Of a stretch of DNA of 64,000 nt, positions 7,140-16,325 are shown piece after piece. How positions within the stretch are numbered: the first letter of the stretch is position 1; each line of letters starts with the position of its first letter. A program made the position numbers and the translations under genes. This stretch comes from Gammaproteobacteria bacterium (GTDB lineage: Bacteria > Pseudomonadota > Gammaproteobacteria > HK1). Under the pieces are notes generated by a model. The model searched no databases and was not told the DNA's origin. It saw only the letters and a program-made list of their open reading frames with translations. Location of the stretch: NCBI GenBank assembly GCA_021773645.1, contig JAJFJU010000012.1, positions 496,001-560,000 of the forward strand, written 5' to 3'.

Positions 7140-7207
7140 GGCGCACATAGTGCGCCCTACGGGGGTTTGAAGGCGGGATGTGTGTGGTAGGACGGGCCGT
7201 GCCCGCT
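7140..7207 (+). repeat. Divergent REP pair
   Basis: 7140-7160 is GGCGCAC-ATA-GTGCGCC followed by CTAC (minus orientation). 7187-7207 is GTAG followed by GACGGGC-CGT-GCCCGCT (plus orientation). The first unit differs from the common GGCGGAC stem but both arms changed together, so pairing is kept. With 7224-7343 it fills the roughly 300-bp gap after rfaH, in which I see no gene. Confidence 0.8.
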
Positions 7208-7223
7208 GATTGCACGGCTGTTT

Positions 7224-7343
7224 GGCAGACATGGTTTTGTGCAGGGATGCACTTATGCCGCGATGGTATTACGCGCATGGATGCACGGGAGTAGGGCAAT
7301 GCAGGAGCAATTGCCGAGGATGCCAAGGAGCGGTCTGCCCTAC
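7224..7343 (-). repeat. Long-loop REP, 120 bp
   Basis: GGCAGAC at 7224-7230 pairs with GTCTGCC at 7333-7339, followed by CTAC. This is a REP in which the 3-nt loop is replaced by about 106 nt. The loop starts ATGGTTTTGTGCAGGGATGC, the same module as in 9481-9552 and 10265-10336, and carries an extra segment with GGCAAT/ATTGCC arms. The outer stem differs from the other copies yet still pairs. Confidence 0.8.
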
Positions 7344-7383
7344 CAGGGAGATGGGCGCCTCTGGGATGGCCCAATGGTTGCGG

Positions 7384-8919
7384 CTACCACACCCCCGGAA
7401 TAAAGCGATAGAGTACGTGTTTGCAGTAGCTCCGGTAGTCTGGGTCCTGACGCAGATGGCGCTCTTCGGTCATTGCTCGCAGGTAGTAAATAAAATTCCA
7501 TGCCCCTAGAAACACAAACTGCATTGGGTTGCTGAAATTGGTGATGCTGCTAGCCCACCAGGCGAGGTTTTTGCAGGTGTAGGCTGGGTGGCGTATCAGG
7601 GCGTAGGGTCCCTGGGTGAGGATACCGCGATGGGTCAGGTTGGAAAAGCGCAGCCCGAAGGCCATGGTTGCCCATACATAAATGGCATATAGCACTAGGC
7701 TAAAGGTCTTCAGCCCCACCTCCAGCCACACTGACTGAAAAATCCAGTAGGCAGTGGAAAAACCCGTCGGGCCATAGGGCAGATAACCATTAGCCACGCC
7801 GTTAAAGGGTGGATAACAGATCAGTGCCACCAGCCAGCCACTCATGGTGGGGTCGACACTACGCGACTTGTTGTCAAGCCAGCGTGAGGAGGCGCAATAG
7901 CCGATGAGCCCCAGCCCCACATCTACCACGAACATGCTGTGGAACAGCACCCAGTAGGCGGCGTCAAAGGACTGTTTCCAGTGCACGCCGATGCGGCCCG
8001 AGCCATCCAGGTACCGACCCAGGAAGGTAGAAAGCTGGCCGAATTCGTTGAATAGAAATACCACCATCAGCGGCACGAAGAAGAGTTTCACCCCCAGATC
8101 CCGCAGTAGTGCGAGATTACGACGGTCATTCAGTATTCGCCGCAGTCCGGTATAACCGGGGTGCAGTACGCGTCGCATCATGCCGCGCAGGATCAGCAGC
8201 AGTACGAAGCCCGCATCCACCCGATGTTCGTAGCGATGCCCGCGATAACGAGCGGTGATCAGCGCATAGGGAAAGCCGAAAAACAGATAGGCGCTATATA
8301 GATAGGCGCAGACGATGCGCCAGTTCTCATAGTATTTGTTGCCATAGAAGGGGTGGGAAAAGGTGATGGCGAGCACCAGGGTGAAGGCGAGCAAGCCCGC
8401 CCCCCAGCGCCAGAAGGCACTGCGCAGGGCCCAGGCGAAGGGCGAGCGCACAATGCGATCCTGACTGCGATCCCGCCATAGCCAGGGCAGTAGCATGGCT
8501 CCCGCCTGTAGCGCGAACACCACCTCCATGCGATTCCACTTCCAGCCGCCAAGCTCCTGCAGTGGGGCCGAGAGTAGCCAGGCGGCACCCTGGGCGATGC
8601 CGAAGATTCCCCCCAACGTTACGGCGCTAATGGCTAGGATCAGTGCCCGCCCAGTGCGGTTGCGGATGAACTCCCAGCTCACCATGAACTGGAAGCCGAG
8701 CAGCACGATAAATAAAATGTCGTAGTAGTTTCGGGTGATGGAACGGAAATGATAGTCGGCGGGTAGCCAGCTCAATGCGCCCGTAATAGGGGGGCCGCCA
8801 GCCGGCAGTACCCGGGTCTGGTATAGCGCGTAGGCGATGGCCATACACAGCAGATAGCAGCCACCGAGTACCCCGGTGGACTGGTTTTGGCAGCCTTTGG
8901 TGACATCAAATTCGTGCAT
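7384..8919 (-). CDS. Polytopic membrane protein with C-terminal ICMT/PEMT-like methyltransferase signature
   Basis: A 511-residue protein with roughly ten hydrophobic segments spread along its length. The last 100 residues have the isoprenylcysteine/phospholipid methyltransferase pattern: TQGPYALIRHPAYTCKNL, then a hydrophobic stretch, then TEERHLRQDPDYRSYCKHV, which in this family bind SAM and the membrane substrate. The long N-terminal membrane part is unlike ordinary ICMT proteins of about 200 residues and I do not recognise it. The start at 8919 (MHEFDVTK) has AGG six bases upstream. It is convergent with rfaH and divergent from the pilin gene. Function is inferred only from the C-terminal motif. 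Confidence 0.7.
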   Translation of the reverse strand: MHEFDVTKGCQNQSTGVLGGCYLLCMAIAYALYQTRVLPAGGPPITGALSWLPADYHFRSITRNYYDILFIVLLGFQFMVSWEFIRNRTGRALILAISAVTLGGIFGIAQGAAWLLSAPLQELGGWKWNRMEVVFALQAGAMLLPWLWRDRSQDRIVRSPFAWALRSAFWRWGAGLLAFTLVLAITFSHPFYGNKYYENWRIVCAYLYSAYLFFGFPYALITARYRGHRYEHRVDAGFVLLLILRGMMRRVLHPGYTGLRRILNDRRNLALLRDLGVKLFFVPLMVVFLFNEFGQLSTFLGRYLDGSGRIGVHWKQSFDAAYWVLFHSMFVVDVGLGLIGYCASSRWLDNKSRSVDPTMSGWLVALICYPPFNGVANGYLPYGPTGFSTAYWIFQSVWLEVGLKTFSLVLYAIYVWATMAFGLRFSNLTHRGILTQGPYALIRHPAYTCKNLAWWASSITNFSNPMQFVFLGAWNFIYYLRAMTEERHLRQDPDYRSYCKHVLYRFIPGVW

Positions 8920-8974
8920 GGGTGCCTATTATCCCCAATGTCGTGGTCCGGGTCTCATTTTTGCATCGGAAAGT

Positions 8975-9004
8975 TTGCGATGCTTCCAGAGCCCCGTTCA
9001 TAAT
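8975..9004 (+). promoter_or_regulatory. Possible sigma-70 promoter of the pilin gene
   Basis: TTGCGA at 8975-8980 and CATAAT at 8999-9004 with an 18-base spacer, about 40 bases before the pilin ATG. The match is moderate and was found by eye only. Confidence 0.35.
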
Positions 9005-9044
9005 GACGCGGCGGATCAGGCCACCATGTCAGGAGAGATGAGTC

Positions 9045-9452
9045 ATGAAGAACTTTCACCGAAGTGCGGGTATTACCCTGATGGAATTGATGATAGTGGT
9101 TGCCATCATCGGCATCATCGGAGCCTTTGCCTACCCGGCCTATCAGGATTATGTGCGCGAGGCGCGCCGGGCCGAGGGTCGTAACCTGCTACTGCAGGCG
9201 GCCAACCGGGAAGAGCGCTTTTTCGCCGATAATAATACCTACACAAACGTTATGACCCAGCTCAGCTTTGCCGCCGACCCGGCAGTCTCGGAGAACGCCT
9301 TCTACACCGTGGATGCCACTGCCGCCAGCGCCACCGCCTACAGCCTCACGGCAACCGCCCAGGGTCTCCAGGCCACGGATACTGAATGTGCCACCATCAC
9401 CCTCAATTCCCTGGGACAGAAGGGCTCCACTGGCGGCGGCGACTGCTGGTAG
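9045..9452 (+). CDS. Type IV pilin-like protein, PilE family
   Basis: A 135-residue prepilin. The N-terminus MKNFHRSAG is followed by [22 protein letters not shown], the class III signal. PilD would cut after Gly9, methylate the new N-terminus, and Glu at mature position 5 is present. Next come [20 protein letters not shown] and [12 protein letters not shown], typical of PilE-like minor pilins, and a C-terminal pair of cysteines (TECATITL and GDCW) that probably forms the D-region disulphide. The ribosome site AGGAGA lies 9 bases upstream. No other pilus genes are nearby, so it is an isolated minor pilin or pilin-like gene. Confidence 0.9.
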
Positions 9453-9480
9453 TAGCCCCAGATTTTGACCACCGCTGGAC

Positions 9481-9552
9481 GGCGGACATGATTTTGTGCA
9501 GGGATGCACTTATGCCGTGACGGCATGGATGCCGGAGAGCGGTCCGCCCTAC
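9481..9552 (-). repeat. Long-loop REP, 72 bp
   Basis: GGCGGAC at 9481-9487 pairs with GTCCGCC at 9542-9548, followed by CTAC. The 54-nt loop contains GTGCA-GGGA-TGCAC and ATGCCGT-G-ACGGCAT hairpins. It is nearly the same as 10265-10336, and the two lie on either side of the RAYT gene. Confidence 0.85.
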
Positions 9553-9575
9553 CGCCCCGTCGGAATTATCGTCAC

Positions 9576-9596
9576 GTAGGGCGGACCGTGTCCGCC
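9576..9596 (+). repeat. REP unit upstream of the RAYT gene
   Basis: GTAG followed by GGCGGAC-CGT-GTCCGCC. The loop differs (CGT for CAT) while the stem is intact. It lies 51 bp before the transposase start. Confidence 0.85.
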
Positions 9597-9647
9597 AAAC
9601 AGCCCGATTTTAACCACCATTCATAACCATAATGACAAGGATGTCAG

Positions 9648-10181
9648 ATGCCAAACTATCGCCGTGCCAGTGTTCCGGGCGGCTCCTATTTCTTCACCTT
9701 GGTGAGCTGGAAACGACGCCCAAACCTCACTACCCCGGCCTTCCGTACAGCCTTGCGTGCTGCAATTACAGCCGTTCGCCGATCCCATCCATTTCAGATA
9801 GATGCCTGGGTCTTGCTTCCTGATCACTTACATTGCATGTGGACTCTGCCGCCCGACGATGCTGACTATCCCAGGCGCTGGTCAATGATTAAACGCCTGA
9901 CCAGCCAGGCCCTTCGAGGTGCTGATAACCCGGTTATTCCTGGGCAACGGAGGAAGTTTGGAATTTGGCAATCCCGGTATTGGGAGCATCTCATTCGCGA
10001 TCAGAAGGATTTGAATCAACATCTGGATTATTTGCACTGGAATCCTGTTAAGCACGGGCATGTCCCGCGGGTGGAAGACTGGCCATACTCAAGTTTTCAC
10101 CGCTATGTGAACGAAGGAAAATATCCCGAGGCCTGGGGTGATATTCCGCCGGATGAAAAGGATGGCCGTTTTGGTGAATAA
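9648..10181 (+). CDS. RAYT: REP-associated tyrosine (Y1, HUH) transposase
   Basis: A single-strand-specific HUH nuclease related to IS200/IS605 TnpA that recognises and cuts REP sequences near their GTAG. 177 residues. The HUH motif is His60 and His62 in LLPDHLHCMWTLP. The catalytic Tyr is about residue 128 in HLDYLHWNPVKHG, and FGIWQSRYWEHLIRDQKDL is typical of the family. AAGG lies 7 bases before the ATG. REP units with the expected GTAG plus palindrome flank it at 9481-9596 and 10216-10336, as is known for RAYTs. RAYTs are usually domesticated single-copy genes, not active insertion sequences. Confidence 0.93.
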   Translation: MPNYRRASVPGGSYFFTLVSWKRRPNLTTPAFRTALRAAITAVRRSHPFQIDAWVLLPDHLHCMWTLPPDDADYPRRWSMIKRLTSQALRGADNPVIPGQRRKFGIWQSRYWEHLIRDQKDLNQHLDYLHWNPVKHGHVPRVEDWPYSSFHRYVNEGKYPEAWGDIPPDEKDGRFGE

Positions 10182-10215
10182 GCGGTAGCGATTCTGGCGC
10201 GCTGGATACGGGCTC

Positions 10216-10336
10216 GTAGGGCGGACCATGTCCGCCAAATATCTTGTTTTTACCGCCGCCGAACGGCGCACATGCTTTTGTGCAGGGATGCTCTTATGCC
10301 GCGACGGCACGGATGCCGGAGAGCGGTGCGCCCTAC
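10216..10336 (+). repeat. REP plus long-loop REP downstream of the RAYT gene
   Basis: 10216-10236 is GTAG followed by GGCGGAC-CAT-GTCCGCC. 10265-10336 is a minus-orientation long-loop unit with stem GGCGCAC/GTGCGCC and terminal CTAC. The stem differs from 9481-9552 at one pair, and both sides changed. The rest of the 10182-10673 gap is the leader of the PEP-CTERM gene; 10337-10600 shows nothing else I can name. Confidence 0.85.
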
Positions 10337-10601
10337 GAGGATTTGTCAGAAATTTTTACGCTTCTGAACCCGCTAGCAGTGCGTAGTTGCCGCTTGCACC
10401 TGCCAAGACGCTTTAACCGCACTATAAAAACAGAGGAACAAACAATTACTTAAGTGTTTATTTTTAGGTTTTACCACAGCTTGCCCAAGACTCGGGAAGG
10501 GAAGGTGCCACGTCAGGAAACTTTACACCTGCCGGACAGAGCACCTCTTGGGTAGAGAACGTGATGTCCTAACGTTATGAATAATAAGCAAAAACAAATG
10601 A

Positions 10602-10617
10602 TGGCATGGGGTTTGCA
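10602..10617 (+). promoter_or_regulatory. Sigma-54 (RpoN) -24/-12 promoter
   Basis: TGGCATGGGGTTTGCA matches the consensus TGGCAC-N5-TTGCA with a single change. GG (10603-10604) and GC (10615-10616) are at the required spacing. Transcription would start near 10628, 45 bases before the PEP-CTERM gene. RpoN control together with PrsK/PrsR is known for PEP-CTERM genes in other proteobacteria. Confidence 0.8.
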
Positions 10618-10673
10618 TTAAACCCCCTCACATGAAGCAATAAAGCACGAAGCAAACTTTCGGAGCACAGAAC

Positions 10674-11522
10674 ATGGCAACAAAACGAATTCTAAGTCTC
10701 ACGGCGCTGACCCTCGCGGGTGGGCTGTGTTATGCGGGTCTGGCGGGTGCGTTGGTTATTATCCCGGAGGATGAGCCCAATAATAGTCTAGGCTCGGCGC
10801 AGGAAATAATGGATGCTGACTTCTCGCTTGATGGCAGCTTCGACATTGGCGACATCTCCGGCAACAATACCTCTGGTACCATTCCCCACGTCACTATCCG
10901 TGGCCTTGGTGGCGACGGCACTGTCGATTACTACTCTTTTATGGTGTCCACTGCCGGTTCCAGGGTGATTTTAGACATTGATGACGGCGGAACGGGCGAT
11001 AGCCTGGATACAAAAATGGCTGTGTGGGACCCGTCGGGTCATCTAGTAACCACCCTTAGCGGCGCTGGACATAATAGTGTTGTTGGTGATGATTCACTTG
11101 TTTCGATGGGGGCTTCGGGAAGTCTTTCTTTTGGGGGGGAGTCTCCCCCGGAGTCTCCGGACCCTTTCCTGGAGGGCATCTTGGGAGATGCCGGACTGTA
11201 TGTCGTGGGGGTTACGGAAGTTGGTGGCGATGTTGCCTTTAGTACGGGTGATTCCCTTCGCCTTGATTCCAACTGTCAACACTTTGATTTTCCGACACCG
11301 CCGATTTGTCTTGAGTCGTCGCTATCAGAAGGAGGATGGTATAGCGAAGTGAACAACTTTCTAGGGACGTGGGGTCCTGGTGGAGGTCTTACACAGGTGG
11401 GCTCTTCTTACACCCTCCATATCTCTGTGGATGAGAGCGATGTTCCCGAACCCACGACCTTGGCGCTTCTCGGCCTCGGCTTGGCTGGCATGGGCTTTGG
11501 TGCCCGCCGTCGCAAACACTGA
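10674..11522 (+). CDS. PEP-CTERM sorted exported protein
   Basis: A 282-residue secreted protein. It has an N-terminal signal peptide (MATKRILSLTALTLAGGLCYAGLAG, cleavage near there) and a C-terminal PEP-CTERM sorting tail: VPEPTTLALLGLGLAG, a short hydrophobic helix, then ARRRKH. An exosortase (EpsH/XrtA type) cuts at this tail, linking the protein to exopolysaccharide export. The middle resembles a bacterial pre-peptidase (PPC-like) beta domain (DEPNNSLGSAQ, GDGTVDYYSFMV). It has a CGGAG ribosome site, a sigma-54 promoter and an intrinsic terminator, so it is a single-gene unit. No exosortase is in the window. Confidence 0.9.
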   Translation: MATKRILSLTALTLAGGLCYAGLAGALVIIPEDEPNNSLGSAQEIMDADFSLDGSFDIGDISGNNTSGTIPHVTIRGLGGDGTVDYYSFMVSTAGSRVILDIDDGGTGDSLDTKMAVWDPSGHLVTTLSGAGHNSVVGDDSLVSMGASGSLSFGGESPPESPDPFLEGILGDAGLYVVGVTEVGGDVAFSTGDSLRLDSNCQHFDFPTPPICLESSLSEGGWYSEVNNFLGTWGPGGGLTQVGSSYTLHISVDESDVPEPTTLALLGLGLAGMGFGARRRKH

Positions 11523-11551
11523 CAAGCATCGCTTATTGTTCCTTTCCGAAT

Positions 11552-11574
11552 CCCGCTCCGGCGGGGTTTTTTTT
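11552..11574 (+). terminator. Rho-independent terminator of the PEP-CTERM gene
   Basis: CCCGC, loop TCCG, GCGGG, then G and eight T, 30 bases after the stop codon. Confidence 0.85.
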
Positions 11575-11726
11575 GTGCAGGGACGCACTTATGTCGCGAT
11601 GGCATGGATGCCAAGGAGCGGCGCTTGTGCAGGGACGCACTTATGCCGCGATGGCATTACGCGCATGGATGCGCGGTAGTAGGGTAACGCAGGAGCAGTT
11701 ACCGAGGATGCCAAAGAGCAGTCCCT
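11572..11726 (+). repeat. Two tandem copies of the long-loop module without REP stems
   Basis: From 11572 (TTTTGTGCAGGGACGCACTT) and again from 11624, the module seen inside the long-loop REPs recurs, here without outer REP arms. The second copy has the extra segment of 7224-7343. Its internal arms are GGTAAC/GTTACC where that copy has GGCAAT/ATTGCC, so base pairing is kept though the sequence changed. This fills most of the 11523-11924 gap, where I see no gene. Confidence 0.7.
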
Positions 11727-11736
11727 AGCCAAGCGC

Positions 11737-11790
11737 CGCTCCCGCACATCCTGTGCTCCGCGACATAAGGCCATCCATGGCCAAAGTTTG
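11737..11790 (+). repeat. Dispersed repeat, copy 1
   Basis: Starts CGCTCCCGCACATCC and includes AAGGCCATCCATGGCCAAAG. It aligns with 16255-16309 at roughly four bases in five. Confidence 0.6.
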
Positions 11791-11861
11791 GTAGGGCGGG
11801 CCGTGCCCGCCGAATAGGCTTTCATAGCCGCTTAATATGCGGCAGACATGGTCTGCCCTAC
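11791..11861 (+). repeat. Inverted REP pair with variant stems
   Basis: 11791-11811 is GTAG followed by GGCGGGC-CGT-GCCCGCC. 11841-11861 is GGCAGAC-ATG-GTCTGCC followed by CTAC. Both stems differ from the commonest form and both keep perfect pairing. A short GTAG...CTAC remnant is visible at about 11893-11906. Confidence 0.85.
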
Positions 11862-11924
11862 ATGTTGATGATAGCGAGTCGATTCAAACCGGGTAGCCGT
11901 GCCCTACGACTGTTTTCTAACTTC

Positions 11925-12937: not shown

Positions 12938-14098
<1,161 letters not shown>

Positions 14099-16211: not shown

Positions 16212-16325
16212 GTTAAAAATCGGCTCAAAATGCTCGCTTACTCATTTGCAGGATCGCTCTCGCACATCCTTGTGCTTTGCGATCTAAGGCCATCCGTAGC
16301 CAAAGCTTTTTCGCCGGTTTTTGCC
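16212..16325 (+). repeat. Dispersed hairpin-forming repeat, with copy 2 of the 11737-11790 repeat
   Basis: Outer arms GTTAAAAATCGGC (16212-16224) and GCCGGTTTTTGCC (16313-16325) pair at about 10 of 13 positions. Inside, 16255-16309 matches 11737-11790. It lies between the convergent radA and PilZ genes and may end their transcripts. Confidence 0.55.

Follow-up and report, generated by a model that had tools for sequence, protein, structure and literature searches.

Long-loop REP elements in a gammaproteobacterial genome are probably ordinary REPs entered by a dispersed two-hairpin unit with loops resembling CsrA sites

The repetitive extragenic palindromes (REPs) described together with RAYT transposases have a loop of 3 nt in the part of the published account used here (PMC2817692), and such palindromes are known, from a second account used in part (PMC1525189), to be entered by other mobile elements, with five insertion sequence (IS) families, e.g. 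IS1397, IS621 and ISPpu9, recorded in them. Here we describe a 64,000-nt stretch of a Gammaproteobacteria bacterium genome (GCA_021773645.1, contig JAJFJU010000012.1, positions 496,001 to 560,000; the window), which holds three REPs with long loops. In these and in their relatives the loop reaches 54-129 nt through an inserted unit. With a probability that we put at about 0.75, the long-loop elements are ordinary REPs that have received a covarying two-hairpin unit of ~51 nt, which enters hairpin loops and has loops of its own that resemble CsrA sites. As with REP-targeting IS, a second mobile element is inserted into a REP palindrome, whereas the insert here is a non-coding hairpin unit with further copies behind terminators and within its own hairpins.

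The unit also resembles RNAs that have been linked to CsrA. TwoAYGGAY RNA (RF01731) has, in the parts of its description drawn on here, two hairpins with NGGA-type loops and tandem G-A pairs (PMC2864571, PMC4333381), and CsrA binding was proposed for it (PMC4333381, in part). The unit shares both features but differs in its short stems, its TTAT linker and its enclosing stem, and in being dispersed and multi-copy. One unit array could be aligned to the RF01731 model with both loops matched; this best score, 25.1 bits (E 0.149, in the window's own genome), lies below the gathering score of 43 and so outside membership of the family, and searches of three further genomes (G001, G002 and G003) gave no match up to E 1. 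The N position of the unit's loops is often G or A rather than the Y of AYGGAY. The CsrA/RsmA decoy RNAs CsrB and RsmY/Z also carry GGA-loop hairpins in several copies, according to the sections of PMC4333381 and PMC4347634 consulted; the unit is like them in its GGA-loop hairpins and unlike them in not being one transcribed small RNA gene, as it is known here from DNA sequence.

The three composite REPs lie on the forward strand. Composite 1 (7224..7343) has arms at 7224-7230 (GGCAGAC) and 7333-7339 (GTCTGCC), CTAC at 7340-7343 and a loop of 102 nt that contains one two-hairpin unit, itself split by a 48-nt type C unit (7270..7317, forward strand) with two extra GGA hairpins, which sits in the hairpin-2 loop of the first. 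Composite 2 (9481..9552; arms 9481-9487 GGCGGAC and 9542-9548 GTCCGCC, CTAC 9549-9552) and composite 3 (10265..10336; arms 10265-10271 GGCGCAC and 10326-10332 GTGCGCC, CTAC 10333-10336) each have a loop of 54 nt, and their units, at 9494..9543 and 10278..10327 on the same strand, score 75.1 and 71.2 bits with our covariance model R1. The initial annotation had these elements right in sequence, position and the full complementarity of their 7-nt arms, as well as in the CTAC that follows every right arm and is present at the 3' end only; it was also correct that a long loop stands in place of 3 nt, the loops being 4 nt shorter than the lengths it gave. The change of an inner arm pair from GGCAAT/ATTGCC to GGTAAC/GTTACC that it reported is found between the copies at 7291 and 11679. 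The outer palindromes can be recognised as REPs by their many genomic copies and by a REP-flanked RAYT-like gene between composites 2 and 3 (9648..10181, forward strand, 177 aa). This gene matches Y1_Tnp (PF01797, E 2.1e-5, 25 bits against a cut-off of 23) and is called RAYT because of its setting.

A census of REPs was made in 61 stretches from three congeners, the window's own genome (G000) and two others (G001 and G002), as a right arm GTNN[GA]CC followed by CTAC with an exactly complementary left arm at most 160 nt away. Loops of 3 nt occur in 46 exact-arm REPs, 26 in the 21 stretches of G000, 6 in G001 and 14 in G002. The only other lengths found are 54 nt (two in G000, two in G001, none in G002), 102 nt (two, none and none) and 129 nt (none, one and none), and all seven long loops start and finish like one insert. 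A loop of 54 nt equals 3 + 51 nt, and that of 102 nt has a further 48-nt type C unit. Besides those of the window, the composites comprise one more in its own genome (L019, the same as L213), three exact-arm cases in G001 and an eighth, also in G001 (L026, C3), whose arms GGTGCAC/GTACGCC have one mismatch and one wobble when read by eye. The claim that the arms always pair thus holds for the seven composites with exact arms and fails for this one. One of the G001 composites carries a type B unit, a second one type A. When one composite was used to search its own genome, 20 matches were obtained, and most of them span the insert and have no REP arms. Among the plain REPs of G000 the arms are GGCGGAC in 17/26, GGCGCAC in 5/26, GGTGGAC in 2/26, and GGTGCAC and GGCAGAC in 1/26 each. 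The suggestion that selection keeps the arms paired over the long loop is not supported, since plain 3-nt-loop REPs of the genome carry the same arm variants.

Comparison of the window with G002, based on the sequences and on BLAST coordinates, provides a site without the insert. The place orthologous to window 10200-10340, where composite 3 lies, is a plain REP, GGCGGACATGGTCCGCCCTACGAGG, with 84% identity on the RAYT side and 71% on the other. For composites 1 and 2 the whole REP is absent at the orthologous places. Sites with and without the unit are found elsewhere too. In the G001 orthologue (L022) of the composite L019, the type C unit is absent exactly within the hairpin-2 loop, and a locus of G000 (L201) lacks a unit that at the orthologous G002 site lies inside another unit's hairpin-2 loop. 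A unit that lies where a coding region ends, immediately ahead of valS, is present in G000 and G002 (L196 9692-9742 and L245 11863-11913) and absent in G001 (L223). From a reading by eye, we take flanking open reading frames (ORFs) to be sufS, metG, trpC, pdxJ, pcm and valS. The genus also has a longer repeat (AAGACAAGG..AAAAATTGGCGAAAAAGC..) that occurs with or without the unit inside (L246 near 10028, L208 near 6884).

The unit consists of hairpin 1 (GNNCA-N-GGA-TGNNC), TTAT and a stem GCCGC..GCGGC with GA/GA, which encloses hairpin 2, whose loop is again ANGGA. We aligned 40 hand-chosen units from the three congeners, without chance matches, units whose hairpin 2 is interrupted, the two rows from G027 and three near-duplicates. 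The A and GGA are unchanging in both loops of all 40. In this set 93.3% of the cells are paired, against 79.7% after shuffling; double-changed cells number 70 (shuffled 19.2) and pairs with a double change 10/13 (shuffled 6.9). Outside the genus, 54 distinct 51-nt units were compared, gapless in MAFFT, after other lengths and seven loci on G001 or G002 contigs had been dropped; here 97.6% of the cells are paired (shuffled 81.9%) and 93 are double-changed (shuffled 25.1). These units were fetched by a pattern that fixes most loop letters and leaves the inner stem positions free, so that the set is a fair test of covariation and not of loop conservation. Across 179 distinct 50- and 51-mers there are 111 G-U against 52 A-C, an excess that favours the modelled strand, although searching with the model could in itself be biased towards G-U. 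These alignments show the unit to be a family of its own with a conserved, covarying predicted structure. No Rfam 15 family reached its gathering score in the window, and none appeared at E up to 5 within 7150-11900; literature searches for strings of the unit's sequence, or for CsrA with REP, MITE or sponge, found no paper, most subscription journals lying outside their coverage. The two-hairpin unit looks undescribed.

Many further copies were found with the covariance model, and the hairpins inside the long loops covary significantly in this test, which the initial annotation had called for. At E <= 0.01 there are at least 48 R1 matches in G000, 51 in G001 and 78 in G002, counts that may be lower bounds as 150 candidates were scored per genome. 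Under stricter filters 74 of the 274 genomes of the class have matches, and among the hosts with names that a pattern scan found are Sedimenticola, a Solemya gill symbiont, Woeseiaceae and Thiohalomonas. In a sample of the phylum, R1 matches 29/398 genomes at E <= 1e-4, and 17 of the 29 belong to one family, f198, outside the class. One query each of plasmid and phage collections gave no match. The unit covaries strongly, occurs commonly in part of one class and is also found in another.

In 36/97 pattern-scan copies the unit begins where a terminator-like hairpin with its T tract stops, and in 2/97 such a hairpin is on the other side (shuffled upstream 7.6%); without the 15 copies from the own genus this is 32/82 against 2/82. 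In the congener set the figures are 12/103 upstream and 3 on the other side (shuffled 5.6%, p 0.03). The window has one such place, read from the sequence, in which a hairpin with T tract (11552..11574, forward strand) lies directly 5' of a cluster of units: a solitary unit outside any REP (11573..11622, forward, 75.1 bits with R1), a tandem unit split by a type C unit (11625..11722, forward, 50.1 bits) and an inverted type B unit (11735..11784, reverse, 60.8 bits). G002 shows the same arrangement of terminator and unit. Units are also found by eye in the loops of other REPs, as GTAGGAGCGGCTTT-unit-GAAGCCGCGA in L106 and similarly in L133 and L148, and of two Sedimenticola palindromes; for insertion into loops outside REPs of the window's type, the evidence is these individual cases together with the sites with and without the unit.

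Other repeats carry the unit as well. G140 has 64 R1 matches, and 18 of the 19 copies read there lie, by eye, in a repeat like a miniature inverted-repeat transposable element (MITE), whose ends, for example TTAAGGAAGCTCTGAATAAG and CTTATTCAGACCTTCCTTAA, are complete in 9/10 copies shown at length. This repeat (L282-L300) is ~230 bp long, has many near-identical copies and forms a row of hairpins made of the unit and two more GGA-loop hairpins. The unit itself is like MITEs in being short, non-coding, dispersed and, in G140, carried in an element with inverted ends; it falls outside them in having no clear target duplication and, by eye in the alignments, no terminal inverted repeats. In f198 the units are usually inside another repeat, as TTTGTG-unit-CGGTGAAA or similar. 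The loci L302-L311 and L322-L353 of this family, from a class other than the window's, show a low-complexity repeat CTCTGCGTCCTTTGTG-unit-CGGTGAAA near genes.

In the explanation that we prefer, the 3-nt loop of an ordinary REP has received one of the dispersed ~51-nt units, as the discrete loop lengths and the one orthologous plain REP show. Units enter hairpin loops, each other's included, as the sites with and without them show; by their positions they also take up places immediately 3' of terminator-like hairpins and are carried along in further mobile elements, e.g. REPs and MITEs. We infer that single-stranded DNA is what they target. Long-loop REPs with covarying arms can, on this explanation, be built by insertion.

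In the part of the account cited, the CsrA consensus has the sequence RUACARGGAUGU, its GGA lying in a hairpin loop (PMC4347634), and unit copies with GTACAGGGATGTAC match it exactly. ANGGA is the sequence of both loops in 75/103 congener copies and in 73/82 outside copies, the latter count being biased by a search pattern that partly fixed the loop letters. Among 11,593 perfect hairpins with a 4-bp stem and a 6-nt loop on both strands of the congener stretches, where the mean is below 3 per loop, ANGGA loops are the most frequent of all (ATGGAT 74, AGGGAT 64, AAGGAT 43). CsrA genes number two in G000 and one each in G001 and G002. Of the 74 unit-bearing genomes of the class 54 were tried, and CsrA is encoded in 49; four of the five without it are less than 90% complete and the fifth, G138, is 95% complete. 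In the phylum sample, 28/29 unit-bearing genomes encode CsrA against 192/369 others (p 6e-7, on the assumption that the two samples of 398 used for CsrA and for units are the same genomes), the miss being G501, 74% complete. A structured RNA, one of the possibilities first raised, is plausible as a prediction. As the loops fit a CsrA/RsmA site, the unit transcribed into RNA would offer a CsrA dimer two predicted sites. That this self-nesting unit, spread by entering loops and terminator ends, acts as a genome-wide CsrA sponge is a doubtful extension of this. If true, REPs, MITEs and gene ends of many Gammaproteobacteria and a second class would have become scattered RNAs that bind CsrA, through a unit that moves its own way. 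Were CsrA to bind the unit, post-transcriptional regulation would have one of its sources in mobile repeats; were it not to, the unit would be a clean case for the study of hairpin-into-hairpin insertion.

The position of units relative to genes was also considered. Seven of the first ten f198 loci have the unit just upstream of a gene read by eye. In 32 stretches of f198 the closest ORF downstream is on the same strand in 13, on the opposite strand in 14 and not called in 5, at least two of which have a same-strand gene by the earlier reading. With the strand this even, the idea of 5'-leader regulation was dropped. For the other sets the upstream ORF is on the same strand in 58 cases and on the opposite in 41 (p 0.11), with a crude ORF caller that places 68/168 units inside ORFs of at least 90 aa, many of them probably spurious. 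At L005 near 1505 (G000:C28:169743), the leader region of a pilin-like gene seems, by eye, to contain a unit in frame.

Several of the observations weigh against insertion of a mobile unit with loops that resemble CsrA sites. A plain-REP orthologue exists for only one of the three window composites, and composites 1 and 2 may have arrived ready-made. No clear target duplication was seen by eye at the sites with and without the unit, and no transposase was pinned to it. Palindromic arms do not generally flank units (3/97 and 2/103, with ~2% expected), and terminators are less strongly enriched in the own genus than outside it. Outside the genus, the double-changed pairs (7/13) are hardly above the shuffled value of 5.7. 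For CsrA, the unit-bearing phylum genomes are clustered in few families, so the link is phylogenetically clustered. The gene context gave no clear orientation of units towards genes and no cis-regulatory signal, and a role with CsrA in 5' leaders is hence not favoured; units just behind terminators should, moreover, be poorly transcribed from upstream.

A serious contender, if short of probable, is that the unit acts only as DNA, a single-stranded substrate moved by a Y1/RAYT-type transposase, with the GGA loops as DNA landmarks and no role in RNA. The ends of IS200/IS605 elements, and REPs themselves, are substrates of this single-stranded kind. Insertion into hairpin loops, the lack of a clear target duplication and the RAYT-like gene nearby would all agree with this, folded DNA tolerates G-T pairs as RNA does, and Y1_Tnp is found in 33/36 genomes with at least six unit matches against 19/37 without units (p 0.0002, in a comparison that ignores genome size and repeat content). 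The close fit of both loops to the CsrA consensus argues the other way, as do two of the three unit-rich genomes in which Y1_Tnp has no match: G115 is 73% complete, but G134 and G249, with 6 and 9 units, are 100% complete. As regards the REP part, the cargo-carrying RAYT substrate proposed earlier may be right, given the RAYT-like gene between two composites, but most units lie outside REPs, and G134 and G249 gave no Y1_Tnp match. Y1_Tnp matches number 11 in G002, some broken or tandem, and two in each of G000 and G001.

It is unlikely that the unit is a passenger with no mobility of its own, copied only by moving REPs, MITEs and other host repeats. The G140 copies in a single MITE and the f198 units inside another repeat are what a passenger would give, whereas in the loops of REPs and of units the with/without sites coincide with the ends of the unit itself, and units stand behind many different terminators.

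Very improbable is the new REP class of the initial annotation, a single long-loop lineage whose arms selection keeps paired across the loop. Seven of the eight composites do have fully complementary though differing arms, and the arms changed with compensation between G002 and the window at the orthologous REP. The discrete loop lengths, the arm variants shared with plain REPs and the orthologous G002 plain REP without an insert argue that the long-loop elements are not such a class; composites hold both type A and type B inserts, most units lie outside REPs, and the arms of L026 pair incompletely. Carriage by group II (IIC-like) intron machinery is hardly credible and was rejected: group IIC introns insert behind terminator hairpins, in the position and orientation of the units there, but the GIIM domain shows no association with units (10/36 unit-rich against 6/37 unit-less genomes, p 0.27) and is found in none of G000, G001 and G002.

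The insertion of units into ordinary REPs, which we prefer, also has its plain counterparts in the window. A plain REP at 7140..7160 on the reverse strand has the arms GGCGCAC/GTGCGCC and a 3-nt loop; those at 9576..9596 and 10216..10236 on the forward strand have a GTAG head and a 3-nt loop; and two more are found at 11791..11811 (forward, arms GGCGGGC/GCCCGCC) and 11841..11861 (reverse), the latter with the arms of composite 1, GGCAGAC/GTCTGCC. An additional type B unit lies at 16253..16303 on the reverse strand (R1, 53.5 bits). The genes adjoining the composites include one for a ComP-like minor pilin (9045-9452) and one for a PEP-CTERM protein (10674-11522). At 13136-14098 the window encodes an IS110-family transposase (DEDD_Tnp_IS110 and Transposase_20), and IS110 elements are known REP-targeting elements according to the part of PMC1525189 cited above.

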